Origin: Polyodon spathula
Taxonomy: Eukaryota > Chordata > Actinopteri > Acipenseriformes > Polyodontidae
Assembly (NCBI RefSeq): GCF_017654505.1
Contig: NC_054547.1
Span: 23,937,975-24,001,974 of the forward strand
Direction of reading: 5' to 3'
Length of the DNA stretch: 64,000 nucleotides
Part shown: in pieces, positions 1 through 60,260 of the stretch
Numbering within the stretch: the first letter of the stretch is position 1
Layout: each line of letters starts with the position of its first letter
The notes under the pieces: model-generated
What the model was told of the DNA's origin: nothing
The model's input: only the letters and a program-made list of their open reading frames with translations
Databases searched by the model: none
Translations under genes and position numbers: made by a program

Positions 1-929
1 AATGACAAGTGATCCTGATATGAAATTAACAACACAGGAAATAAACCAATCAGGTCTAGATAGTAGTAATGAGTGCGAGATTTAAATAAAGACAACATGC
101 GCTTAAATGCAATGTTAGAAGTTATCTGAATATGAAAATGGGTATTTTGGCAGCGTTAAGCCACCCACACGATTTTAGCTATGTCACTGTAGTAACATTC
201 GTCAGTACCACATGAATATCAAACTAGATTTAACATTATTTATTTTTATGCCTGTTGCCCTACCTAATCAAAACTTTTAATACCCACGGTCCCTTATAAT
301 TTAATAAGCAGTGCACACAATTCCAATAGATTAAAAACTCTATGTTTTACTATTATCTGTTATCGACTATTACTTACTCCTAAGTACTTTATCCTCCAAT
401 CCCTGCGAACACAGCACTGTAGTTGAATCAGTACGTGGTTCAGTCAGACTGAGTATTTCAGTTCCTCCTACTAGCTTGTGTTTTTTTTCACCAGTCCATC
501 CCTCCTCCTTTCCGCCATCTTCGCTCTTCCTGCATCTTTGCGGGGTCCTGAAAGCCAGATTGTCGCGGACAAAATGCATCCCAGGTGCCTGAATTTCCTT
601 AAAAGACAATCACATTAAAAGCTGATTTTTTCACTCGTTTACTTGGACATGTTTCGCCTTCAGTACAGGATAAATGTTTTCGATTAAATAAAATAATAAT
701 TAGAATAATAAAGAAGGTATTAAAGACCGGCACTTAAGAAGTAACGTTCAGCATATATGTTGCCCACTGCCAGTCAGGGACAGGCATGTTTCTTCTGAGC
801 TACAAGTACAATAGTTTACGGTAGGAGTGGGAACCAGATTTCCAGATTCTCTTCAATTCATGGAAGCTGTAGAAACACTGTAGCCGTTCAAATAAGTATA
901 TAACACAATCGTAATTTTTATATATATAT
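1..929. other. No recognised gene
   Basis: I find no supported gene or repeat here. The stretch around 370-600 is more GC-rich than its surroundings and has an open minus-strand frame of 79 codons, but it matches no family I recognise and lacks clear splice sites. Confidence 0.4.
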
Positions 930-7241: not shown

Positions 7242-8306
7242 TTAAACACTTTTCACAATGTATCCAAGCATCTTGTTAGCCTTTTTTATAGCTTCCCCAC
7301 ATTGTCTAGATGAAGACATTTCTGAGTCAACAAAAACTCCTAGGTCTTTTTCATAGATTCCTTCTCCAATTTCAGTATCTCCCATATGATATTTATAATG
7401 TACATTTTTATTTCCTGAGTGCAGTACCTTACACTTTTCTCTATTAAATGTCATTTGCCATGTGTCTGCCCAGTTCTGAATCTTGTCTAGATAATTTTGA
7501 ATGACCTTTGCTGCTGCAACAGTGTTTGCCACTCCTCCTACTTTTGTGTCGTCTGCAAATTTAACAAGTTTGCTTACTATACCAGAATCTAAATCATTAA
7601 TGTAGATTAGGAATAGCAGAGGACCTAATACTGATCCCTGTGGTACACCGCTGGTTACCACACTCCATTCTGAGGTTTTTCCTCTAATCAGTACTTTCTG
7701 TTTTCTACATGTTAACCACTCCCTAATCCATGTACATGTGTTTCCTTGAATCCCAACTGCATTCAGTTTGAGAATTAATCTTTTGTGCGGGACTTTGTCA
7801 AAAGCTTTCTGGAAATCTAAATAAACCATGTCATATGCTTTGCAATTATCCATTATCGATGTTGCATCCTCAAAAAAATCAAGCAAGATAGTTAGACACG
7901 ATCTCCCTTTCCTAAAACCATGTTGACTGTCTCCCAGGACCCTGTTACCATAAAGGTAATTTTCCATTTTGGATCTTATTATAGTTTCCATAAGTTTGCA
8001 TATAATAGAAGTCAGGCTTACTGGTCTGTAGTTACCTGGTTCAGTTTTGTTTCCCTTTTTGTGGATCGGTATTACATTTGCAATTTTCCAGTCTGTCGGT
8101 ACCACCCCTGTGTCAAGAGACTGCTGCATGATCTTGGTTAGCAGTTTGTAAATTACTTCTTTCATTTCTTTGAGTACTACTGGGAGGATCTCATCCGGCC
8201 CAGGGGATTTGTTTATTTTAAGAGCTCCTAGTCCCTTTAACACTTCTGCCTCAGTTATGCTAAAGTTATTTAAAACTGGATAGGAACTGGATGACATGTG
8301 GGGCAT
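7242..8306 (-). pseudogene. CR1 reverse transcriptase domain
   Basis: 354 uninterrupted codons. Motifs in order: SPGPDEILPVVLK, NYRPVSLTSIICKLMETII, QHGFRKGRSCLTILL, VYLDFQKAFDKVPHKRL (first catalytic Asp), GVPQGSVLGPLLFLIYINDL and KFADDTKVGG (FADD active site), then the thumb with FNREKCKVLHSG. This is the polymerase that copies LINE RNA at the nicked target. The catalytic residues are intact, but it is split from the endonuclease by frame breaks near 8306-8570, so the element cannot make one full protein. Confidence 0.92.
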
Positions 8307-8362
8307 GTTGTCAGTATCTTCCTTTGTAAAAACTTGTGAAAAGTAATCATTTAATATATTTG

Positions 8363-8554
8363 CTATTTTTTTTCTTCATCTATGATTTTGCCATTTGTAT
8401 CTCTTAAACATTTAATCTCCTCTTTGAATGTTCTCTTGCTGTTGTAATATTGGAAAAACATTTTGGAATTGGTTTTAGCTCCCTTAGCAATGTTCATTTC
8501 TATTTCTCTCTTTGCCTTTCTAACTTCCTTTTTGACTTGCGTTTGCAGTTCCAT
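8363..8554 (-). pseudogene. CR1 ORF2 linker segment between endonuclease and polymerase
   Basis: 63 codons, including LQTQVKKEVRKAKREIEMNI and FFQYYNSKRTFKEEIKCL. This is the lysine-rich linker normally found between the CR1 endonuclease and polymerase. It is separated from both neighbours by frame breaks. Confidence 0.75.
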
Positions 8555-8572
8555 GTACTCTTTCTGTGTACT

Positions 8573-9613
8573 TTATTTTTGGTCCTTTTTTAATGCTCTG
8601 TAAAATGTCTTTTTTCGCTGAATATTTTTTTTAATTGATCTATTAAACCATTTTGGCAATTTAGTTTTACATTTAGATTTGTCTACTTTAGGGATGTAAT
8701 TGTTTTGCGCCTGTAGTACTACATTTTTGAAGAACAGCCATCCTTCTTCTGTGGGTGTTTTCTCTATTTTACTCCAATCTACTTCTGTTAGTCTCTGTTT
8801 CATACCTTCATAGTTTGCTTTTCTAAAATTGTAAACCTTAGCTTTAGTATTTACTTTTGGGGTTTTAAAAAACACTTCAAATGAGACCATGTTGTGGTCT
8901 GAGTTTACCAGTGGTTCTCTGACCTCTGTTTTAGTTATTCTGTATTTGTTATTTGAAAAGACTAAATCAAGGCATGCCTCCCCTCTAGTCGGTGCCTTGA
9001 TAAATTGTGTTAGGAAGCAGTCATTTGTCATTTCCACCATTTCTATTTCATCCTTTGTGCTACCCACCGGGTTTTCCCATTTTATATGGGGGAAGTTGAA
9101 ATCCCCCATTAGTATGGCTTCTCCTTTGCTACACGCATTTCTAATGTTATTGTATAACAGATTATTTTGCTCACCGTCTGAATCTGGCAGTCTATAGCAT
9201 GCTCCTATTATTATGCCCTTTGAATTTTTGTCCGTTATTGTGACCCATATTGATTCAGCTTTATTTTCTTTGTCCAGGTTTAACACCTGGGCTTCAAGAC
9301 TGTTTCTTATGTATAGCGCTACCCCTCCTCCTCTTCTGTCCTGCCTGTCTTTCCTATACAGTGTATACCCACAAATATTATATTCGTCCCCATCACTCTC
9401 AGACAACCAAGTTTCTGTAACACCTATCACATCATAGTTACTTGTTGGTGAAGTAGCTTCAAGTTCTAGAATTTTGTTTCTGATACTTCTAGCATTTAGA
9501 TAAATACATTTAATGGTTGTCTTACCTGAGTTGTTGTTCTTGTTTTGATGTGGTCTCCATTCTGTTTTTTTGTTGATTTCTCTCCCCTTCCTTTCTAGTT
9601 TAAATCCAAGCAA
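8573..9613 (-). pseudogene. CR1 endonuclease domain (APE-like)
   Basis: 346 codons with apurinic-endonuclease-type motifs: IKCIYLNARSIRNKILELEA (conserved Asn), YDVIGVTETWLSES (catalytic Glu), GGGVALYIRNSL, AILMGDFNFPHIKW (GDFN) and NSDHNMVSFEV (SDH). This domain nicks target DNA to prime reverse transcription. The open frame begins near the 5' limit of recognisable element sequence, so it may lack the usual N-terminus and ORF1. Confidence 0.9.
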
Positions 9614-9650
9614 AGTGACAAAGGAGAGAGGAAAGCTGTGGAGCTACAAT

Positions 9651-11723
9651 ACTTGACATACCTATTTCAAGTTTCTGTGGTTCCTCAAAACAGCAAAGAA
9701 AAAACAGCGATATAGACTTCAAAAATACAACGTAACTCAATGCCTTATCCAAACTGATCTAAGCAATTTAAAACATTTGTCTTGGCTAACTGAAATATTT
9801 ACAGGTGCTAAATAAATCACTCGGTGCTGGGTTGAAACTATATTTTGTCTCATGAAGCCACAAATTACATCATAAAATATCCTCCGTAAAAAAGTAGTCA
9901 AACAGATCAGCACTGGATGATGAATCAAACCTTTAAAAAGCAACCTTCTACAAAACAGAAGGTGGCAGAACATTCTAATGTCACAGAACTCTAACTCTGT
10001 GTTGTGCAGACAGATCCACAAATTTACATCACAATATGGCCATTTTTTTTCCCTATAACACCAACTGCAAACATTTTGAATAGCTAAAAATAACGTGCAT
10101 TTGTATTTCATACAGTATAATGCATTAATTAGATTTTTCATATTAGTGGCTCAGTATTTTCAACTTGCTAGCTGCTAAGAATACTTTTGATTTAAGTCTG
10201 GGTGGCCCAGCAGATTCAATGACATTAATATAAACAGGCTTATTCATACATCCAATATCATATGGAAAGAACTGGTCAACACTGATTTATGACCAAGATT
10301 TTGTTAATAAAAATACAAAAATAATTGGGATTAGGTTGAAAAAGGTATTATAGCGATACGTCAAACATGGACAGGAAGTAATGTGTTTGATTTTAAACTC
10401 CCCAGCATGTTCAGTAACACTTATCTGTTCTAAAATGTCAGTAACCCAGAGCTTACCCCTTGCAGAATCTTTACTCCCAGCAAGGATTATTTTTTTACCG
10501 TCAATGATGACCAGGTGCAAGTAATTATCTTAAATAATATAAATTAATTTGTTTTCTATTAGATTTATGTTTGTCTATATTATATGTAAATAAAAACATA
10601 ATATACATATTTCAGTATATTCAATATACTATAGCTGTACATCCAATGGAAGAACAGTAAATATCAACCTTTTGTAAATCACCAGCTTACTAGTTGTTTT
10701 TAGATAGCTCTCTGTGCAGCATTCTGGCCTGAAACACTAGCAGTCAGGATACAGTATATTAAACTTTTATCAAACTGAATAGAAAACATAAGATACTGTA
10801 TTAAAGGAGGGAAACATAGTCATTGGTGCATGTTACCCTGGTAAAGAAGCATGTCCTCTTTCTTGGTAAAGTGAAGGTTATCCACTGTAGATAATAGGAA
10901 ACATGTTTCTAGCATTGGGAATGTGCAGGTTGGGGATGGGTTTCCCTGGATAATTTTTGGTGGCAGATAATATTTCAGGAAACGTATAATATTTTTTGTT
11001 ACTATGTAATAGCTGTTTATGCTACATGGTGGTAACAATATTTACAAAATGTCATCATTGAATTTTAGTTTTTTACATTTAAGGGGGCAAATTCCCCACC
11101 TTGTAGGCAGCCATCCAAGCAAGAAACTAGAATGATTGAACTACTCGTTACCTGATCATTCTTTACAGTTTTATTCCATTACAACTATTTTATTCCTCTC
11201 AACATAACTGCCTTTGCAATGGCTTCTAAACAGTGTAAGGAAAGGAAATTAATTTGATGTCTGTAAATGAGTGTGCACAACACCAATTGCTATGTTAGTA
11301 AGTCTCCATTTATTGACTCCAGTATTCAAAAGTTACACACAAACAGCTCAAACATCATCATTAGACACAACAATGTAGCACCTAGCTATAAACAGAAATC
11401 TGGTATTGATCAATTACCTAATGTTCTGGGAGAAGTGGTCTGTCAAGTGCCTGTGTTATATATCTTACTGTACCTAACTGTGAAGCTGAACTTTGTTTAC
11501 ATTCTGACTTCCTAACATTATCTAAACACTATTAATTTAATGGTGTGAGTTACATTGTTGTTCCAGACAAAGAACATACAGTACATCTCTTCTACACAAG
11601 GACAAACGTACCGCACTTTATCAATTCCTTAACCTTCGGTGACCTTACAACAGGACCCTAAGTTCAGAAAGGATGCAGACTGTTCACGCACACCTCGGAG
11701 AGATACACACAGGAAACACTTAC
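9651..11723. other. No recognised gene (probable INPP5D intron or 3' region)
   Basis: AT-rich DNA. I looked for distal INPP5D proline-rich exons, including a second NPxY motif, and found none. A 40-codon minus-strand segment near 10440-10520 ends at a GTAAGC donor-like site, but its product is not one I recognise. Confidence 0.45.
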
Positions 11724-11963
11724 AGGTGCTCTCCAGGTTTGCCTGTTTGACCGTGGCTCAGCAGCGTCTGACCAGTCTTCTTGGGAGACAGCGGGGATTG
11801 GGGGGGTGGGTCGCTGTTCCCTCCTATGCCTGGGGGGCTCTGTTTGGGTGGCTGGTCGTAGTTCCAGGAACAGGGGGGCAGCAGATCCGGAGAACCACCT
11901 GCTTTCAGACCAACCCCCATGTAATTGGGGTTGCTGATGTCTGTCAGAGACAAGTGAGGTAAC
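11724..11963 (-). pseudogene. inpp5d: INPP5D exon with NPNYMG (NPxY) motif
   Basis: 240 bases, open throughout, beginning after CCCACAG (acceptor at 11965-11964) and ending before GTAAGTG. It encodes LTDISNPNYMGVG, then CSWNYDQPPKQSPPG and PPQSPLSPKK, matching the SHIP1 C-terminal tail. NPNY is the first tyrosine-phosphorylated PTB-binding site of the family, and PxxP stretches for SH3 binding follow. This exon looks undamaged. The exon expected just upstream (FVKTERDES region) was not found between it and 14774; that interval holds the minisatellite and a dispersed repeat. Confidence 0.9.
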
Positions 11964-13224: not shown

Positions 13225-14773
13225 TTTATCTCTCTGCTCTTACCGTATAGTTTCTCCCTCTGCCTCGTGCCCTTACTGTACAGTTTCTCTCTCTGTCTCG
13301 GTGCCCTTACTGTACAGTTTCTCTCTCTGTCTCGCTGCCCTTACTGTACAGTTTCTCTCTCTGCTCTTACTGTACAGTTTCTCTCTCTGCTGCTCTTACT
13401 GTACAGTTTCTCTCTCTGCCTCACTGCTCTTACTGTACAGTTTCTCTCTCTGCCTCGCTGCTCTTACTGTACAGTTTCTCTCTCTGCCTCACTGCTCTTA
13501 CTGTACAGTTTCTCTCTCTGCCTCGCTGCTCTTACTGTACAGTTTCTCTCTCTGTCTCGGTGCTACTGTACAGTTTCTCTCTCTCTCGCTGCTCTTACTG
13601 TACAGTTTCTCTCTCTGCCTCACTGCTCTTACTGTACAGTTTCTCTCTCTGCTCTTACTGTACAGTTTCTCTCTCTGCCTCACTGCTCTTACTGTACAGT
13701 TTCTCTCTCTGCTCTTACTGTACAGTTTCTCTCTCTGTCTCGCTGCTCTTACTGTACAGTTTCTCTCTCTGCCTCACTGCTCTTACTGTACAGTTTCTCT
13801 CTCTCTGCTGCTCTTACTGTACAGTTTCTCTCTCTGCCTCGCTGCTCTTACTGTACAGTTTCTCTCTCTGCTCTTACTGTACAGTTTCTCTCTCTGCCTC
13901 ACTGCTCTTACTGTACAGTTTCTCTCTCTGCTCTTACTGTACAGTTTCTCTCTCTGCCTCACTGCTCTTACTGTACAGTTTCTCTCTCTGCTCTTACTGT
14001 ACAGTTTCTCTCTCTGCCTCGCTGCTCTTACTGTACAGTTTCTCTCTCTGCCTCGCTGCTCTTACTGTACAGTTTCTCTCTCTGCCTCACTGCTCTTACT
14101 GTACAGTTTCTCTCTCTGCTGCTGCTCTTACCGTACAGTTTCTCTCTCTGCCTCGCTGCCCTTACTGTACAGTTTCTCTCTCTGCCTCGCTGCTCTTACT
14201 GTACAGTTTCTCTCTCTGCCTCGCTGCTCTTACTGTACAGTTTCTCTCTCTGCCTCGCTGCTCTTACTGTACAGTTTCTCTCTCTGCCTCGCTGCTCTTA
14301 CTGTACAGTTTCTCTCTCTGCCTCGCTGCTCTTACTGTACAGTTTCTCTCTCTGCCTCGCTGCTCTTACTGTACAGTTTCTCTCTCTGCCTCGCTGCTCT
14401 TACTGTACAGTTTCTCTCTCTGCCTCGCTGCTCTTACTTTACAGTTTCTCTCTCTGCCTCGCTGCTCTTACTGTACAGTTTCTCTCTCTGCCTCGCTGCT
14501 CTTACTGTACAGTTTCTCTCTCTCTGCTGCTCTTACTGTACAGTTTCTCTCTCTGCCTCGCTGCTCTTACTGTACAGTTTCTCTCTCTGCCTCGCTGCCC
14601 TTACTGTACAGTTTCTCTCTCTGCCTCGCTGCTCTTACTGTACAGTTTCTCTCTCTGCTTTCTGCTCTTACTGTACAGTTTCTCTTTCTGCCTTGCTGCT
14701 CTTACTGTACAATTTCTCTCTCTGCCTCGCTGCTCTTGCTGTAAGGTTTCTTCTCCTTCCCTGCTGCTCTTAC
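13225..14773. repeat. 34-bp minisatellite derived from an INPP5D exon end and splice donor
   Basis: About 46 tandem units. The commonest is 34 bp (ctcttactgtacag... ctctgcctcgctg), with shorter variants lacking the 8-bp cctcgctg part. On the minus strand each unit reads GCAGAGAGAGAAACTGTACA, then GTAAGAGCAGC. The adjacent true exon end at 14774 reads GCAGAGAGAGAAGCTCTACG, then GTAAGAGCAGC. The array is therefore an amplification of about 20 exon bases plus about 11 intron bases, including the GT donor. The long plus-strand open frames across it (over 500 codons) are artefacts of a unit without stops. Confidence 0.95.
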
Positions 14774-14920
14774 CGTAGAGCTTCTCTCTCTGCTTACCCT
14801 CCGAGGTGCGCAGCTGGATGGTCCCGTTGAAGTCCCCCGTGTGTTCCCCATGGTGGGTCAGGGGGGTGGAGAAATCAGTGGTGCAGAATTCAGCACACCT
14901 GAGAGCCACACAGCCTTTGC
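14774..14920 (-). pseudogene. inpp5d: INPP5D exon (THHGEHTG region)
   Basis: 147 bases: 2 + 48 codons + 1. It begins after CCCTCTACAG and ends TACG before GTAAGAGC. It encodes KGCVALRCAEFC, STPLTHHGEHTGDFNG and TSEGKQREKLY, matching the SHIP1 segment downstream of the phosphatase domain (C2-like region). The exon itself is open, with good splice sites. Its donor is followed at once by about 46 donor copies in the minisatellite. The preceding exon (LLDQHILISIKSS region) was not found between 14921 and 16515. Confidence 0.92.
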
Positions 14921-16594: not shown

Positions 16595-17113
16595 CTGAAA
16601 GACAAATTCAACAGTCACGTTGCTAAGGAGATGCTGTGCTTGATCTCTGTAATGCTCTGAATTCAGCTGTTAAATATAGGGTTAAACATACTGAAAACAA
16701 GGCAATTGTTGGAAGTCATGTTTATATGATACAGCAAAGTACAATGAAGTAATTATTGAAGTTCGCATCTTGGCAGTGCAAAGCTGCCAGTCTTTGCTGT
16801 GGATACACACAGGTAGTAAACATTGGCTCTGGTGCTCCCGTGGAATAGGGAGGGATTGATTCACTTCATCATGCTACAGCGGACCCTACTGACCAGGCGC
16901 TTGGTGAGTTCAAACGACACCTGCAGGGCTGGCCTTTGTCCTCCAGCTGACATCCGCTCTCAAGTTCCTGGGTGTAAAAGACGCTCGGCGGACGACCATT
17001 GACCTTCATTTCTTCTGAACAGTTGTGGGTAATTGTTGTGCTCAGGGTGAAAAATTGGATGTGTCAAATCTGGGACAAAATCATGGCTAAAAATCATGGC
17101 AACATAGTCTTAC

Positions 17114-17227: not shown

Positions 17228-17521
17228 CTGAAAGACAGAATCGGACAGTGAAACACGAAACTGTACTGTTTACTGACACAGCTACTGGCTGTTATTCCAT
17301 TCTGCTACTGCTGGTTTTGTTCTTACTGTTGAACACATTTGGAGGACCTGCTATTTGTTAAGTTTCCCCTGTAGATGGGGATCTGGTCAGTTTCATGCCA
17401 CAGATAATTAATTTGGCAGAAGTAAATTAACAATACACCAAACAATCAAGCCATCACAGAATATGTCAATAACAAATAAGCAAATGAATAAATATCACAT
17501 TTGTAAAAAAATAACGCTGAC

Positions 17522-28955: not shown

Positions 28956-29059
28956 CCAACTTCCAGGTGCCTATGAAGATGGTGATCATGTCAGGCACCG
29001 ATTTGTCTGAATGCTTGTTCTTCATCTGCTGAAAAGAGTTGGCAGAACCCTTCCCGCTT
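28956..29059 (-). pseudogene. inpp5d: INPP5D exon with +1 frameshift and altered TWNMG motif
   Basis: 104 bases between a TATTTCAG acceptor and a GTGAGC donor; 103 are expected. It begins KREGFCQL in frame, then has four T residues where three would keep the frame (29023-29026), and continues in the shifted frame as QQMKNKHS and VPDMITIFIGTWKLG. The family motif is TWNMG, where Asn contributes to the metal and substrate site; here it is Lys (AAG). Use of the internal ttttcag as an acceptor could bypass the frameshift only by dropping about nine codons and still changes the phase. Confidence 0.9.
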
Positions 29060-31154: not shown

Positions 31155-32587
31155 TACTGAACAAAAATATAAACGCAACATGTAAAGTGTTGGTCCCATG
31201 TTTCATGAGCTGAAATAAGATCCCAGAAATTTTCCATATGCACAAAAAGCTTATTTATCTCAAATTTTGCGCACAAATTTGTTTACATCCCTGTTAGTGA
31301 GCATTTCTCCTTTACGAAGATAAGCCATCCACCTGACAGGTGTGGCATATCAAGAAGCTGATTAAACAGCATGATCATTACACAGGTGCACCTTGCGCTG
31401 GGGACAATAAAAAGCCACTCTAAAATATGTAGTTTTGTCCACCAGAGCTGTTGCCAGAGAATTGAATGTTCATTTCTCTACCATAAGCCGCCTCCAACAT
31501 CGTTTTAGAGAATTTGGCAATACATTCAACTAGCCTCACAACCGCAGACCACTGTAACCACGCCAGCCCAGGACCTCCACATCCGGCTTCTTCACCTGCG
31601 AGATCGTCTGAGACCAGCCACTCAGACAGCTGATGAAACTGTGGGTTTGCACAACCAAAGAATTTCTGCACAAACTGTCAGAAACAGTCTCAGGGAAGCT
31701 CATCTGCATGCTCGTCGTCCTCACCAGGGTCTTGACCTGACTGCAGTTTGGCATCGTAACCGAATTCAGTGGGCAAATGCTCACCTTTGATGGCCACTGG
31801 CACGCTGGAGAAGTGTGCTCTTCACGGATGAATCCCGGTTTCAACTGTACTGGGCAGATGGCAGACAGCATGTACGGTGTCGTGTGGGCGAGCAGTTTGC
31901 TGATGTCAGTGTTGTGAACAGAGTGCCCCATGGCAGCGGTGGGGTTATGGTATGCGCAGGCATAAGCTACGGACAACGAACACAATTGCATTTTATCGAT
32001 GGCAATTTGAAAGCACAGAGATACTGTGACGAGATCCTGAGGCCCATTGTCGTGCCATTCATCCGCCACCATCACCTCATGTTTCAGCACGATAATGCAC
32101 GGCCCCATGTCGCAAGGATCTGTACACAATTCCTGGAAGCTGAAAATGTCCCAGTTCTTCCATGGCCTGCATACTCACCAGACATGTCACCCACTGAGCA
32201 TGTTTGGGATGCTCTGGATCAACGTGCACTACAGCGTGTTCCAGTTCCCACCAATATCCAGCAACTTCGCACAGCCATTGAAGAGGAGTGTGACAACATT
32301 CCACAGGCCACAATTAACAGCCTGATCAACTCTATGCGAAGATGTGTTGCGCTGCATGAGGCAAATGGTGGTCACACCAGATACTGACTGGTTTTCTGAT
32401 CCACGCCCCTACATTTTTTTTTAAAGGTATCTGTGACCAATAGATGCATATCTGTATGCCCAGTCATGTGAAATCCATAGATTAGGGCCTAATGAATTTA
32501 TTTAAATTGACTGATTTCCTTATATGAACTGTAACTCAGTAAAATCTTTGAAATGGGTGCATGTTGCGTTTATATTTTTGTTCAGTG
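31155..32587 (+). mobile_element. Tc1-like transposon with short inverted repeats, nearly complete
   Basis: 1433 bp. The left end TACTGAACAAAAATATAAAC is inverted at the right end (..TATATTTTTGTTCAGTG); the inverted repeats extend about 28 bp, and TA flanks both sides (31153-31154, 32588-32589). The internal transposase is nearly complete. This TIR differs from the other Tc1 families in the window. Confidence 0.95.
31527..32387 (+). pseudogene. DD34E transposase, almost intact
   Basis: The catalytic half from 31815 is uninterrupted for 190 codons. It has LFTDESRFQLYW (first Asp), FQHDNARPHVARICTQFLEA (second Asp) and WPAYSPDMSPTEHVWDALDQ (Glu). Exactly 34 residues lie between the second Asp and the Glu. 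The upstream frame (ISAQTVRN, RRPHQG, WANAHL) is the same frame, interrupted by one TGA at 31788-31790. A further frame break lies near 31525, before the N-terminal helix-turn-helix relic (RAVARELNVHFSTISRLQHR). The transposase would bind the terminal repeats and cut at TA. Confidence 0.92.
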
Positions 32588-42620: not shown

Positions 42621-42734
42621 AGTTAAGGCTGATACATTACCTCGAAGGTGACTGGAGGAATCATTGAATTTCAATGGCATCCATAATAGCCAACAGACTA
42701 AAATACAACACTCCTCGTCTATAAAGCAAAGAGC

Positions 42735-43395
42735 AGAGTTGTGAGAAAGGCATGGAGTAGTAGGGTGGAGAGCAGCTTTCTATCAGAGACAGTGTCAGTG
42801 CTGGAGTCAGAGGCATTGAGCAGGGTGGAGAGCAACCTTCTATCAGAGACAGTGTCAGTGCTGGAGTCAGAGGCATTGAGCAGGGTGGAGAGTAGCCTTC
42901 TATCAGAGACAGTGTCAGTGCTGGAGTCAGGGGCATTGAGCAGGGTGGAGAGCAGCCTTCTATCAGAGACAGTGTCAGTGCTGGAGTCAGGGGCATTGAG
43001 CAGGGTGGAGAGCACTTCTATCAGAGACAGTGTCAGTGCTGGAGTCAGGGGCATTGAGCAGAGTGGAGAGTAGCACTTCTATCAGAGACAGTGTCAGTGC
43101 TGGAGTCAGGGGCATTGAGCAGGGTGGAGAGCACTTCTATCAGAGACAGTGTCAGTGCTGGAGTCAGGGGCATTGAGCAGGGTGGAGAGCAACCTTCTGT
43201 CAGAGACAGTGTCAGTGCTGGAGTCAGAGGCATTGAGCAAAGTGGAGAGCACTTCTATCAGAGACAGTGTCAGTGCTGGAGTCAGGGGCATTGAGCAGGG
43301 TGGAGAGCACTTCTATCAGAGACAGTGTCAGCGCTGGAGTCAGGGGCATTGAGCAGGGTGGAGAGCACTTATATCAGAGAAGGTGTCAGTGTAAC
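42735..43395. repeat. 57-60 bp minisatellite
   Basis: Eleven units of the type 'cagagacagtgtcagtgctg' 'gagtcaggggcattgagcag' 'ggtggagagca(acc)ttctat'. The first four units are 60 bp (with agc(a/c)accttc) and later ones mostly 57-60 bp. Because the unit length is a multiple of three, several frames stay open on both strands; none is a real gene. Confidence 0.97.
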
Positions 43396-47268: not shown

Positions 47269-47552
47269 TGTGGGGCAATGAGATCTAATAAGTATGTCAG
47301 GAAAACAGCTTAGCTGTCCTGTGTGAGTTAGGGACTTCAATACAGTGAAGTTAGTATCTTCAAGTGAAGATAGGATTTTGGTTTGTTCTGTTTGTAAAAG
47401 GGTGTATAGTATTTTGGTTCAGCTATTTACTTTGTTCCTGTCTTTTGTTTTGTTTTGTTTTGTGAGAATAAAAGTGCGCCAAGGTGCTGAACGATAATTC
47501 TGTCTTTGGGTGTTTGCTGTCTCTGCCGCTAGTCAGTCTTGGCTACCCCACA
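47269..47552 (+). repeat. 5' LTR, internally deleted
   Basis: Starts TGTGGGGCAATGAGA and ends GGCTACCCCACA. Compared with the 3' LTR it lacks about 308 bp between 'aagtatgtcag' and 'gaaaacagcttag'. The missing part includes the TATA-like box of the 3' LTR (52208), so this LTR has probably lost its promoter. Confidence 0.93.
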
Positions 47553-47554
47553 TA

Positions 47555-47572
47555 TGGTGTCAACAGTGGGAT
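47555..47572 (+). other. Candidate primer-binding site
   Basis: TGGTGTCAACAGTGGGAT, two bases after the 5' LTR, is where a tRNA 3' end would prime minus-strand synthesis. I do not assign the tRNA. A near-identical motif follows the LTR at 1619-2058. Confidence 0.7.
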
Positions 47573-47599
47573 GGTTAGCACCCCTATAAAAAAAAAAAA

Positions 47600-48397
47600 A
47601 AAACACATTCATTAAGGAAGATGTTCTCAGAGCCTTGTTGCAAGCCACGGCTACTCAGCAAGAAGCAAACCAGCGTCAAAGAGAGCAGACAGAGGCACAA
47701 CAAGAAATTAACCAGCTGCAAAGGGAGCAAGCAGACACACAGCAGGAGACAACTCGGCTTCTGTTGACCCAGATCGCAAGAGGCAAACCGAAAGGCAGGA
47801 ACTGGCGAATCGGCTTGCCACGGTGGAAACAACGCACTGGTCGGGAGGCCCATGATGAGGCCGAGCCACGTTCTGCAAAAGATGACAACTGGTGACGATG
47901 TAGAGGCTTACCTGCTTGCTTTTGAACAAGCTGCTGCTCGAGAGTCCTGGCCCAGGGGACAGTGGGCTGGGATAGTAGCACCGTTCCTGATTGGGGATGT
48001 CCAGAAGGCGTATCATGATCTGGAGGCAACAGCAGCTGAGAACTACGACAGCTTGGAAGCAGAGATCCTGGCCTGAGTTGGCATAACCCCAGCAGTTCGT
48101 GCACAACGCTTTCACAACTGGAAGTTTCAGGAGAAACTTGCCCCAAGGTCTCAAATGTTTGACCTCATACATCTGGCTAGGAGGTGGCTAAACCCAAAGG
48201 GCAACACGGCGACCAGAGTTGTGGAGATTCTGGTTATGGATCATTATTTGAGAGCCATGCCTGCCTCTCTCAGGAGATATATTGGTCAAGGGGACCCAGG
48301 CACAGTGGATGAGTTTGTAGCCTTAGTTGAGCGTCACTTGGCTGCGGTAGAACTGTCTCGGTTACCCAACGAGACCCTGTCCAGGAGCACCGAGTGA
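47600..48397 (+). pseudogene. Gag with SCAN-like capsid region
   Basis: A Gln/Glu-rich, coiled-coil-like start (QTEAQQEINQLQREQADTQQ) is followed by the capsid-like region from 47852: GDDVEAYLLAFEQAAARESW, PRGQWAGIVAPFLIGDVQKA, then, in the same frame after a TGA at 48074-48076, QMFDLIHLARRWLNPKG and GTVDEFVALVERHLAAVELS. The pattern (helical, L-W-L-P, ending in a 'VALVERHL' helix) resembles vertebrate SCAN domains, which are known to descend from gag of this retrotransposon group. The reading frame changes between the two parts. The product would form the particle core. Confidence 0.82.
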
Positions 48398-48480
48398 CCC
48401 GCTACCCTGAAGGACTGGTCTCGCAATGGAGCCGGTAAGAGTGAATGGGGAAAAGGGCCTCTGAAGAGCAGCCATAGGCT

Positions 48481-51342
48481 GTGAAGGGACTGGGGAGTAA
48501 CAGGCATATAAAAGTAGAGCGGTATAAAAATTTTAAATGCTTCCGTTGCCAAGAGTATGGGCATATAAGTGTGCAGCGCCCAAATGAACATGAGCCCATG
48601 CAGTGTAACGTGGGTCTCAATGAGTATGATTGTGGGGTCATAAATGTGGTGAACATGGCACTAGGAGTACATAAGTTTCTAATGCCTTTAAAAATTAACG
48701 GGAAGGAAGCTCTGGCACTCGCAGATTCAGGTAATGCAATTACTTTGGTCTCCATGAATTTTGTGGAATCAAACCAATTGGACCATAATCTTAAAACTGG
48801 AATTACTTGCGTGCATGGGGATGTAAATTTTTATGCAACCAGTATGGTTAATCTTGAATGTCAAGATTCAAAGTGCAAAATGAGAGTTGGGGTTGTGCCT
48901 AAATTGCCGCACGCAGTAATTCTAGGAAGAGATTATCCAGGGTTTGATGCACTGGTTGAAGTTGAAGGGGAATTGGCTCCCCCTGTTGGAAATTTAGTGG
49001 CAGGCGAAACTGGCCCAGAGGAGTGCCTTGAACAGATCTTCCCGTTTCCAGACCCGACGTTGTTTGTAAAACCCCAAAGAATTCGAAAAACAAGAAGGGT
49101 TAAAAGAGAAGAAAGATGCAAGGGCCCCATAGGGGAAAGAGTACCAGAAATGTTACTTGGGGAGAGGGCACCTGGTACAGAACCAGTAGAAATTCGAGAC
49201 CAGGAATTAATGGAGCAATGGTCTCTGCCAAATTTACAGTTTGGAAGGGAGCAGTTAAATGATCTCTCATTGGTGAATATAAGGAAATCTGTGGTGGAAA
49301 TAAATGGGGTGCCGGTGGAAGGTAAAACCAAAAATCCTGTAGAACATTACATTCTCAAGAATGATTTGCTGTATAGGGTTGTACAACAAGAGGGAAATTA
49401 GGTCATACAGTTACTGGTGCCACAACCGTATAGAAATATAGTAATGAAGTTAGCTCATAGCCATTTGTTTGGAGCACATATGGGGGTCAAGAAAACTACA
49501 CAATGGGTTTTAAAGAGGTTCTTTTGGTTGGGCATATATAAAGAAATAGAGCAGTATTGTTTGGGGTGTCCAGAGTGCCAGTTAGCGAGTCCTCGGTCCC
49601 ATTTTAGAGTGCCTTTAGTTCCCCTTCCAGTGCCGTTTGACCATGTAGCAATGGATTTGGTAGGACCCTTACCTAAGTCAGCCAGGGGCCACGAATATAT
49701 TTTAGTGATTCTGGACTATGCCACACAGTATCCAGAGGCTATTCCTTTGCAAAACACCGCCTCAAAAACAATAGCAAAAGAGCTAGTCCAGGTTTTTTCG
49801 AGGGTGGGAGTACCAAGGGAAATTTTGACGGACCAGGGTACTCCCTTTGTATCGAAACTTATGTGAGACCTATGTAACCTATTAAGGATTAAACCCATCC
49901 GTACATCAGTGAACCACCCACAAACGGATGGCCTGGTTGAGGGGTTTAATCGTACCGTAAAGCACATGCTCAAGAAAGTAATCAGTAAGGATGGGAAGAA
50001 CTGGGACACCCTGTTGCCGTATTTAATGTTTGTGGTACGAGAAGTTCCTCAATCTTCTACTGGGTTTTCCCTATTTGAGTTACTTTATGGGAGACAGCCC
50101 AGGGGGATACTAGACATGGAAAGGGAAACTTGGGAGAGCCAAGTAGACACAGGTAAGAATGTGGTAGATCATGTAATGGAGATGGGGGAGAGAATTAGGA
50201 AAGTGACCCCCATAGTAAGAGAGCACATGGAGAAGGCTCAGTTAGAACAGGTGGGAAACTATAAGAAAGCACAAGTTAGAGGGTTCCAACTTGGGGATCG
50301 CGTGCTGGTTTTAGTTTCAACACCTGAAAGTAAACTGTTTGCCAGGTGGCAGGGGCCCTATGAAATAAATGAGGTTGTGGGTCCTGTAAACTGTAAAGTG
50401 CACCGGCCAGACCGCAGGAAAAAAGAGCAGATCTACCACATTAATTTGTTGAAGCCGTGGAAAGATCGTGAAACCGTCTTAATCGCAGAAGAGCCAATAG
50501 CTGAGGGTGATAGAGCACCAGCAGATATAGTTCACATAGGCCCCAATTTAGATGGGACACAAACTAGAGAGGTACGAGATTTAGTGAATAGAAATCAGGA
50601 CTTTTTCACCACATTACCAGGAAAGACAACGTTAGTGCACCACGATATAGTCACTGAACCAGGGGTAAAGGTAAAGCTCAGACCCTACAGAGTACCAGAA
50701 GCCAATAGGGAAGCAGTAAAAAGTGACGTTAAAAAAATGTTACGCTTGGTTGTAATCGAGGAATCCAATAGTGAGTGGACCAGCCCCATAGTCTTGGTTC
50801 CAAAGCCGGATGGGTCCTGGAGATTTTGTAATGGTTTTCGCAAGGTAAATGAGGTATCTAAATTTGACGCTTACCCAATGCCCCGGGTTGATGAGCTGAT
50901 TGAGAAATTGGGCAAAGCCAAATTCTTGTCTAAGCTGGACCTTACCAAAGGTTACTGGCAGATCCCGTTAACAGTTCAGGCTAAGGAAAAGACAGCTTTT
51001 GTGACCCTGGAAGGTCTATTTCAATACACGGTCATGCCCTTCGGATTACACTGTGCTCCTGCGACATTTCAGAGGCTTATAGATAAAGTTTTGAGGCCTC
51101 ATATTCAGTATGCCTCGGCATATCTTGATGATATCGTGGTGCATAGTGAGGACTGGGAGACTCACTTAGCTAAGGTGGAAAACATCTTAGACAGCTTACG
51201 TCAGGCAAGGCTTACAGCTAACCCCGAAAAGTGCCATCTGGGTTTAACAGAGGCAAAATACTTGGGCTACATTGTCGGAGGTGGGTTAATTAGGCCACAA
51301 GTGAGCAAAGTGGAAGCCATAAAAACTGGCCGAGGCCCATAA
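48481..51342 (+). pseudogene. Pol: zinc knuckle, protease, integrase, reverse transcriptase
   Basis: One frame, with stops only at 49399-49401 (TAG) and 49864-49866 (TGA). The knuckle CFRCQEYGHISVQRP lacks the last Cys (Arg instead). Protease: EALALADSGNAITLVS (DSG). Integrase: zinc-binding HSHLFGAHMG...CLGCPECQLA, core Asp in AMDLVGPLP, Asp in ILTDQGTPF, Glu in TDGLVEGFNRTVK, and a C-terminal GDRVLVL-SKLFARWQGPYEI chromatin/DNA-binding type module. Reverse transcriptase: SKLDLTKGYWQIPL, VMPFGLHCAPATFQ and AYLDDIVVHS (YLDD). It ends at a frameshift in an A run near 51320. Confidence 0.92.
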
Positions 51343-51974
51343 ATAAGAAGCATGTTTGGGCCTTCCTGGGTATTGTAGAATATTATAGGAGGTTTATTCC
51401 AGACTTTGCTACAATTGCGGCGCCATTAACCGAAATGACTAAGGGTAAAACTCCAAATATGGTTAAGTGGACAGGAGAGGCTGAAAAAGCCTTTAACCAG
51501 TTGGGAAACGTATTGTGTAGTGGCCCAGTATTAATAGTCCCTGATTTTAAAAAGCCATTTGTGGTACAGACGGATGCCTCTGAAGTGGGTCTCTGGGCAG
51601 TGTTGTCACAAATGATAAATGGTGAGGAACATCCGGTCATCTACCTAAGTAGAAAATTGTTACCAAGGGAGCAGCGATATGCCATAGTAGAAAAATAATG
51701 TTTGGCAGTAAAATGGGCTGTAGAAACCCTAAAATATTATCTACTGGGTAGAGAGTTTTCTGTGGTGACAGATCACACCCCACTCAAGTGGATGAGTCTG
51801 AACAGAGAGAAGAATGCCAGCGTGACAAGGTGGTTTTTAGCCTTGCAGCCATACCGCTTTACCATTAAACATAGAGCTGGTTCAGTAAATGGAAACGCAG
51901 GTGGTCTATCCCGAGCACATTGCCTCTCGACGGAGGCCGCTCTAACCAGAGGGTTTGAGCTGAGAGGGAGGATA
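51343..51974 (+). pseudogene. Pol continued: RT connection and RNase H
   Basis: After the frameshift the next frame gives WAFLGIVEYYRRFIPDFATI (connection), then DFKKPFVVQTDASEVGLWAV (RNase H first Asp), HPVIYLSRKLLPREQRYAIV, a TAA at about 51696, CLAVKWAVETLKYYLLGREF and VVTDHTPLKWM (DHxxL). The open frame runs into the 3' LTR without its own stop. Confidence 0.9.
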
Positions 51975-52566
51975 TGTGGGGCAATGAGAGCTAATAAGTA
52001 TGTCAGTCTGAGGCTGACAAGATCTATGTTCCCCTGTTAAGGTGAAAAACTTGTAGTTCCTTATAGGCATCATGGCCGAAGTGGCTGGGGAAACTACATT
52101 TCCCAGAAGCCTTTAGGGCTGGTGGTATTTAGCCGAAAAATGTAAACACACCTGTCTAATTGGATAGATAGGGTGTTAACTGATTGAGTGTTTGCAATTA
52201 TCTGTCCTATATAAACTGTCCTTTTGTTCTTAGGGATGAAAAAAGGGATGTGGCAGGAGTGTTGAATGTGGAGACTGTAAGTACAGAGGGATTAAATTGA
52301 TAAACTGGATTTGAAACACGAAAACAGCTTAGCTGTCCTGTGTGAGTTAAGGACTTCAGTACAGTGAAGTTAGTATCTTCAAGTGAAGATAGGATTTTGG
52401 TTTGTTCTGTTTGTAAAAGGGTGTATAGTATTTTGGTTCAACTATTTACTTTATTCCTGTCTTTTGTTTTGTTTTGTGAGAATAAAAGTGAACCAAGGCG
52501 CTGAATGATAACTCTGTCTGTGGGTGTTTGCTGTCTCTGCCGCTAGTCAGTCTTGGCTACCCCACA
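51975..52566 (+). repeat. 3' LTR, full length
   Basis: 592 bp, from TGTGGGGCAATGAGA to GGCTACCCCACA, with a TATA-like 'cctatataaactgtcc' at 52207-52222 and an 'agaataaaag' polyadenylation signal near 52480. The regions shared with the 5' LTR differ at a handful of positions. Confidence 0.93.
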
Positions 52567-58742: not shown

Positions 58743-59387
58743 TTATCTGCCTGCTCCTTCATTTTCTCTTTGGCAATTCTGTCTTTCAGGGACATTTTGA
58801 AGGACTTGCTTGGAGAAAGATGGAATTTTGATGCGTGGAGGGCTTTTGAACAATGCAGCCGCTGGTGAGATTCCAGTGGAGCTATGTGGAGTTGCTCTGT
58901 AGTTTCTGAGGAACTTGTACAGTTCTTGGGTTGGTGTTTTTCTTTCAATGATGGCAGTGCGAAGCGTTTTCTTTATGGTTCTCATAAACCTCTCTACTTC
59001 GCCATTGGCTTGTGGCCAATGAGGCATTACCTTCCTGTGATTAAACCCAAGACACTCTGCAAATAAAGCAAATTCAACACTGTTGAAGGGCAGGCCATTA
59101 TCACTTATAACAACCATAGGACTGCCAAATGCTGAGAAGATTTTGTCAAGCTTTGGTATGACTGCTTTAGCTGACGATGTAGTCACTGACTCAACCTCTG
59201 GGAATCTGGAGTAATCATCCATGACTGCTAATAGGTGACCACCACTTGGAAGATCACAGAAGTCAATACTGACATGTGTCCATTGGCTTGAAGGAGGTTC
59301 AGTCATTTTAAGTGGGGCAACCTGATTGGTTGCTGTTGTCTCTTGGCATGGTAAGCAGTTTTTGAGGTAGGCTTCTACATTTGTCAA
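58743..59387 (-). pseudogene. Gypsy integrase fragment
   Basis: 214 open codons: NCLPCQETTATNQ (end of the zinc-binding module, CxxC), WTHVSIDFCDLPSGGHLLAV (first Asp), VVISDNGLPFNSVEFALFAE (second Asp) and PQANGEVERFMRTIKKTLRT (Glu). The catalytic triad is retained. It is followed by a lysine/serine-rich tail and no stop until the frame ends at 58743. The N-terminal His residues are lost. Confidence 0.88.
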
Positions 59388-59618
59388 TTCCTGGGAACCA
59401 GACTTTTTCCCAAAAAAGCTGTTTGGTTTTAACTATGCCAAGGAGACCTTCATGTGTCAGGGCAATGGTGCGGTTCCAAAGCTTCTATGTAATCACTAGT
59501 CTGTTGCTGCATAGCAGGGTGTTCGTCTTGTTAGTTTAGACTTCATGTGGGCATATGAGAGCAAGCATGCGTTTTCTTCTGGAGGTAGCTTTTGTGCTGC
59601 TTTTATCAACTCAGTCCA

Positions 59619-60122
59619 TCATCCATTGTGCACTGTTTCAATGACAAGCTGTAGACAGGCGCGAGAGTTTGTTTCAGTTTGTATTTCAGGCAGTGTCATC
59701 GCCTTTGGAAGTGCATGAGAAAGGACAAAGTGAACGTGTTCTTCAACAAGTTCAGTTCCTGTACAGTTGTGTAATGTGGACAGCTTTGTGGGGTGCCGTG
59801 AGAAGTAGTCAGCTGGGTTTTCTGCACCTGGGTGATAACTAACATTGTAGTCATATGCTTGTAGTTTCAGCAGCCAGCATTCAATACGGGCTGGTAGCTT
59901 TGAAGTGGGGTTGTTGAAGAGTGGCTCCAAAGGCTTAAGGTCTGTAACAATGATGAAGTTGTGGCCATAGAAATAGAGATTGAAGTGGACACACCCCAAA
60001 CAATGGCAAGGGCCTCTTGTTCTCTCTGAGTATCTGAGTATGAGTATCAATGTTTGACTGGTGACAGTGTCTTGCTGGCATAGGCGATTGTGTGAACTTG
60101 TCCTTGCACATCTCTTTGACAT
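59619..60122 (-). pseudogene. Gypsy RNase H fragment
   Basis: Recognised by HNFIIVTDLKPLEPLFNNPT, ARIECWLLKLQAYDYNVSYH and PGAENPADYFSRHPTKLS, the C-terminal RNase H part (xxxTDxxPL, PGxxNxADxxSR). The N-terminal part is shifted to another frame near 60000. Confidence 0.85.
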
Positions 60123-60260
60123 AAAACTGCTCCCAGAATGACAGGGCTGGCATCCACAACTAGCTCAGTTGTTTTCATAGGGTGGAAGTAGGCTATTATG
60201 GTGTCACTTGTCAAGTTCTTCTTCACTGTTAAGAGTTGTTTGGTGTTCTTGTGTCCATTG

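Follow-up and report, generated by a model that had tools for sequence, protein, structure and literature searches.

How does a minisatellite come to begin exactly where a protein-coding exon ends, and does it act on splicing or merely accompany its loss? The locus that raises this question lies in a 64,000-nucleotide stretch of the paddlefish genome (Polyodon spathula, contig NC_054547.1, positions 23,937,975 to 24,001,974 of assembly GCF_017654505.1; here called the window, in whose coordinates all positions are given), where a tandem array adjoins an exon of INPP5D, the gene for SHIP1. An earlier note made from the letters of the window had proposed that the array was built from the exon end and its splice donor, and that it could affect or reflect a loss of splicing. 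Our analysis leads us to consider it likely that the array is a junction-seeded minisatellite, of the type called a mirage in amphioxus, and that it sits, probably without function, in a decayed duplicate of INPP5D.

The array and the junction at its edge

TRF reported one main array, at 13230 to 14793 (period 34, 48.0 copies, 88% matches), bearing out the first claim of the earlier note, that the array is real. We scanned the minus strand between 13150 and 14930 for TAC[AG]GTAAGAGC with up to 3 mismatches, which returned 49 sites; the 49th (13173, 3 mismatches) lies beyond the array and was left out, giving 48 cores, 40 of them exact matches. The first core is the authentic donor of the exon (GT at 14773), so that the array does begin where the note had placed it, and the other 47 are intronic copies on the minus strand. 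GT was kept in 46/47 intronic cores, with GC in the remaining one, and GTAAG in 45/47 (46 including the authentic site). The minisatellite with these 47 donor-like cores spans 13230 to 14772 on the minus strand, and its ~34-bp unit, GCAGAGAGAGAAACTGTACA|GTAAGAGCAGCGAG (the bar marks the splice junction), holds ~20 exonic and 14 intronic bases. The number of exonic bases agrees with the earlier proposal, which had put the intronic part at ~11. The proposed figure of about 46 units was close: of the 47 units, 33 are 34 bp long and the others measure 26 bp (6 units), 31 bp (3), 33 bp (2), 32 bp (2), or 29 bp (1). The interval first given for the array, 13225 to 14920, covers it and also takes in the exon.

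The units fall into types, the commonest being A (n = 16), B (n = 8; type A with one transition), and C (n = 6; an 8-nt deletion). Eight identical 34-bp type A units stand in a row at 14166 to 14437 (units 11 to 18, minus strand). Two runs between 13599 and 13997 on the same strand alternate the 26-bp C with the 34-bp B unit (CBCBC at 13852 to 13997 and CBCB at 13599 to 13718), forming a 60-bp higher-order unit. The most diverged units are 1 to 4 and 45 to 47, at the two ends of the array, together with the isolated units 19 and 38; the others are near identical. A pattern of this kind is usual for tandem arrays that undergo turnover. In two intronic cores, one at 14131 and the other at 13243, the far end, the last exonic base is still a G, as in the exon. 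We also observed an 8-bp palindrome, CTGTACAG, that was made by the exon-to-unit substitutions and is not found in the exon end; ACTGTACAG occurs 42 times in the array.

The adjoining exon (14774 to 14920, minus strand, 147 nt) encodes KGCVALR...TSEGKQREKLY, the final part of the second C2 region in SHIP1, and its last bases read ...CTCTACG. Its tail matches the SHIP1 chains 6dlg and 5rw2 as well as the SHIP1 protein P0122, which upholds its assignment to INPP5D. The authentic 5' splice site, ACG|GTAAGA, has its GT at 14772 to 14773, and a predicted paddlefish protein, P0121, is consistent with an exit from the exon at this point. When the exon and the first 14 intron bases were aligned with the unit, the score was 48, with 3 mismatches and 1 gap, and none of 2,000 dinucleotide shuffles scored as high (maximum 27; for a shorter 54-nt piece 37, also 0/2000). 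The exonic bases alone scored 28 against the unit (shuffle maximum 26; 0/2000), and the scores of ten further exon-end pieces from this gene lay between 8 and 16; the positions of these pieces were set manually from the limits of tblastn matches, and one (11777) falls inside its exon. Part of the match, the exonic GAGAGAGA run, is of low complexity; the remainder, CTnTACnGTAAGAGCAGC, is not. Visible in the same alignment are the three substitutions listed in the earlier note (G to A, C to G, and G to A at the last exonic base), whose derivation of the unit from the exon/donor junction is supported.

The exon appears to be older than the array, because its protein end is conserved in SHIP1 of other fishes: GKQREKLY is common to P0122, P0123 (Chinese sturgeon), and P0124 (bichir), with GKQTEKLY in P0125 (bowfin), the comparison being one of proteins. 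We take the human counterpart to be GKTREKLY. A satellite family from elsewhere could instead have landed beside the exon, its resemblance to the exon being due to chance or gene conversion. We find this scarcely credible, given a match that no shuffle reached and that lies in register with the donor, and given that the unit was not found elsewhere within 64 kb: 15- and 18-base unit probes with up to 2 mismatches had no match outside the array within the window. A 12-base probe gave ten scattered matches outside the array.

How the array may have started is hinted at by a second GT in the exon itself (AGG|GTAAGC, 14796 to 14797, minus strand), 24 nt upstream of the authentic donor. This site, GGTAAGCAG, codes for Gly-Lys-Gln and rivals the authentic donor in both position-weight score (4.62 versus 4.64) and U1 pairing (−8.9 versus −8.2 kcal/mol). 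The 24-mer GTAAGCAGAGAGAGAAGCTCTACG is similar to the 26-bp unit, and misalignment of the two GTAAG motifs is a plausible start for the array, the upstream GT being a candidate slippage seed. In such a course of events, strands would have misaligned at the two motifs, ~34 bp across the junction (20 exonic bases before it and 14 intronic bases after it) would have been tandemly duplicated, and the copies would have gained the three substitutions before spreading and being homogenized by slippage or unequal exchange. Homogenization of this kind would have left behind the diverged units that are observed at both ends of the array.

A broken copy of INPP5D

The window, which contains no N, has other exons of INPP5D as well, which lie on the minus strand from 43769 to 11723 with the introns between them kept. 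Two of these exons are damaged by comparison with P0122: the exon at 42641 to 42718 (minus strand) has two in-frame stops (TAG and TGA), and that at 28956 to 29059 (minus strand) has a +1 frameshift in a run of four T that turns TWNMG into TWKLG. We take the Asn of TWNMG to be the catalytic residue. In addition, four longer, conserved segments within P0122 gave at most 15.4 bits in the intervals where they were expected (residues 481 to 501, 553 to 634, which include LFWLGDLNYR, 787 to 813, and 866 to 895), compared to 41.2 to 55.1 bits for retained exons used as controls (n = 4). A search of the whole window with five query pieces of the lost segments gave a best score of 21.2 bits, at wrong places. 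Segment 684 to 693 also had no match in the window, at ten residues too short to weigh, and residues 1 to 249 and 978 to 1156 were not found in the window and may be beyond it or too diverged. The human sequence as query gave the same absences as P0122; this SHIP1 reference was verified against 5rw2 over 461 residues, and it matched mammalian records, among them one from gorilla at 100%.

Translations of the window's exons, used as query, matched P0121 best (88% identity, 95% of the query covered), followed by P0122 and P0123 (Acipenser sinensis) at 77% each, with about half of the query covered. P0121 is a Polyodon spathula record named as a LOW QUALITY SHIP1-like protein. Its residues 1 to 89, the N-terminus, are a translation of a portion of a second minisatellite in the window (89/89), three exon pieces of the window match it at 100%, and it is without the same segments as the gene copy in the window. 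P0121 is, by these matches, probably the gene model of the present locus, and the matches agree with a paddlefish origin of the window. By Pfam, the phosphatase domain of P0121 is reduced and its second C2 domain is present as a fragment; P0122 has full-length matches for these domains, plus SH2. The kept introns, together with two stops, a frameshift, and missing segments, are those of an unprocessed pseudogene, and we infer that the gene copy is the remnant of a duplicated INPP5D.

The segment expected directly behind the array (FVKIERDD...) is among the losses, with a best score of 11.5 bits between 11940 and 13230. The next recognizable coding stretch (...LPHLSLTDISNPNYMG...) lies at 11723 to 11963 on the minus strand, 11723 being the end of the tblastn match. 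When the donor at 14773 is joined to the CCCACAG acceptor of this stretch, the reading is KLYGYLTCL followed by a stop; joined to an internal acceptor, it is KLYDISNPNYMG, as read in P0121. The position of the lost segment raises the question of whether the array arose in an intact gene and then helped to break it, for example by loss of FVKIERDD..., since minisatellites are prone to rearrangement. We regard this order of events as unlikely: three more of the longer segments, all distant from the array, are missing as well, and the stops and the frameshift lie elsewhere, so the array was not needed for the decay.

Strength of the array donors

We scored donors with human donor frequencies and paired them with the U1 end. 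The common array donor, ACA|GTAAGA (37 copies), scored 1.30, at the 94.6th percentile of non-array GT sites on the same strand, and the authentic ACG|GTAAGA scored 4.64, at the 99.0th percentile. The U1 duplex was likewise weaker for the common array donor (−4.5 versus −8.2 kcal/mol for the authentic donor). Eleven other donors of the gene, hand-picked from listed sites, scored 0.91 to 5.21. Judged by these scores, most of the decoys are weakened by the A that replaces the last exonic base, and splicing would thus still favor the authentic donor if the locus were transcribed.

Use of the array donors, with transcripts spliced from several units into alternative or truncated products, would be in keeping with the GT and GTAAG kept in nearly all intronic cores, with the stronger ACG|GTAAGA form kept at 14131 and 13243, and with the donor use reported for human IFI6 (below). 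Reading from the exon into the array also stays open for 170 nt beyond the donor. However, this extension shifts the frame and ends at a stop at 14603, most array donors fall short of the authentic one in score, and P0121, itself a prediction, fits an exit at the authentic donor. Given further that the upstream stops and frameshift leave no normal product to be expected, we consider such use improbable. The decay of the gene would suit an array that reflects a loss of splicing better than one that affects splicing.

Our preferred reading, a junction-seeded and probably functionless minisatellite in a decayed INPP5D duplicate, has several points weighing against it. The evidence comes from one haplotype, as DNA sequence. 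P0121 does not lend independent support to the lesions, because it probably stems from the same assembly and locus. The only fuller proteins among the matches were P0123 (Acipenser sinensis) and P0122, and not an intact paddlefish copy. Retained exons are well conserved (19/19 residues in one of them), so the array may be older than the decay, which may itself be recent. Finally, two of the gene's inferred donors (1.19 at 17113 and 0.91 at 17521) score below the array's 1.30, and the array donors are therefore weak rather than dead.

Neighboring repeats, comparable arrays, and meaning

A second minisatellite occupies another intron of the same gene (42762 to 43391, minus strand; 58 bp, 10.6 copies by TRF) and reaches to within 43 bp of the exon that starts at 42718, the one with the two stop codons. 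As an acceptor-side counterpart of the main array it was rejected on a free local alignment of flank and unit, whose score was reached by 535/2000 shuffles under strict and 117/2000 under loose settings. A phase-locked alignment was reached by 179/5000 shuffles and scored 6.5, compared to a best of 1.5 in 13 control regions; this version was picked after the first result, and several of the control regions do not end exactly at AG, which lowers control scores. Derivation of the second minisatellite from the acceptor at 42718 is thus suggestive only. More speculatively, 5' splice junctions of vertebrates might seed minisatellites in general, with purine-rich, donor-containing transcripts (sense strand: 76.6% purine) leading through R-loops or U1-linked pausing to tandem duplication, relaxed duplicates letting arrays grow, and the second array as the acceptor-side counterpart; we give this idea little credence.

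Searches for products or relatives of the main array came back empty. A 200-residue translation from the plus strand of a portion of it had no protein match at E 0.001 among 6,832 candidates, and a 24-base unit pattern had none in viral contigs, where it was not expected and where records near this genome may be left out. Rfam (gathering thresholds) and a tRNA scan returned nothing in the window. Between 13151 and 14830, each of the three plus-strand frames stays open through the array (559, 531, and 497 codons); as genes these were rejected, since they merely follow from the lack of a plus-strand stop codon in the unit.

Mobile elements lie elsewhere in the window. A long terminal repeat-type retroelement at 47298 to 52566 has direct repeats ~5.0 kb apart (97% and 92%) and domains for protease, integrase C terminus, and reverse transcriptase. 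Its integrase part precedes the reverse transcriptase within one frame, an order known from Gmr1-like elements. A remnant resembling a long interspersed nuclear element (7242 to 9643, minus strand) has an endonuclease and a reverse transcriptase domain, carried by two open frames next to each other, and another retroelement (58743 to 60164, minus strand) has fragments of integrase core and RNase H domains. The DDE_3 transposase domain at 31791 to 32387 (plus strand, 198 open codons, with an overlapping antisense open frame) presumably belongs to a Tc1/mariner-like element.

That a coding/splice junction should seed a satellite had been called uncommon, which is fair, although the kind is known from amphioxus and from human IFI6. 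In amphioxus, minisatellite-like duplications of exon-intron boundaries, named mirages, are described for Adh3 and for the globins BflGb6 and BflGb9 (PMC3087553), and PGBD5 and troponin C are mentioned in a second account (PMC3902484). According to these sources, Adh3 mirage units measure 10 to 72 bp, array lengths vary, cluster edges escape homogenization, and the data suggest that regular splicing is undisturbed (PMC3087553, PMC3902484). The paddlefish array has the anatomy of a mirage in the respects that could be examined: its unit holds exon sequence, splice signal, and intron sequence; it adjoins an authentic junction, whose donor is its first core; and its interior is concerted, with the edges excluded (units 19 and 38 being exceptions). 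It differs in size, having 47 units where the BflGb6 haplotypes described have 6 and 3, and in setting, since mirages belong to cephalochordate genes with splicing reported as undisturbed and the present array to a decayed gene copy of a vertebrate.

Human IFI6 (6-16, G1P3) has a minisatellite with units of ~12 nt. In 1995, Turri et al. reportedly found that this minisatellite provides multiple splice donors. According to another source, two downstream repeat units serve as donors in this working, interferon-induced gene (PMC4526556). The likeness lies in donor-containing units at an exon end; however, the IFI6 donors are in use in a working gene, whereas those of the present array are known from their sequence and the gene copy is broken. 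In human segmental duplications, internal tandem repeats with ~30-bp units vary in recent duplicate genes and sometimes lie at exon-intron boundaries; they have 4 units on average and are linked to evidence from transcripts, and none is described in the available part of the paper as donor-seeded with tens of units (PMC2812944). An INPP5D array was not reported among the literature matches listed, which carries little weight, as coverage of subscription papers is thin.

Mirage-type arrays are thus already known, and what is new is a large vertebrate example in a decayed gene copy. The sequence that founded this minisatellite, the end of an exon plus its splice donor, can be identified almost to the base, so that the array's origin and homogenization can be traced. 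The array shows what relaxed selection permits in a duplicate gene, and it could serve as a natural experiment on the number of weak, competing donors that a spliceosome can tolerate. If array donors are used in any species, such arrays would bear on the gain of introns through duplication of splice signals.
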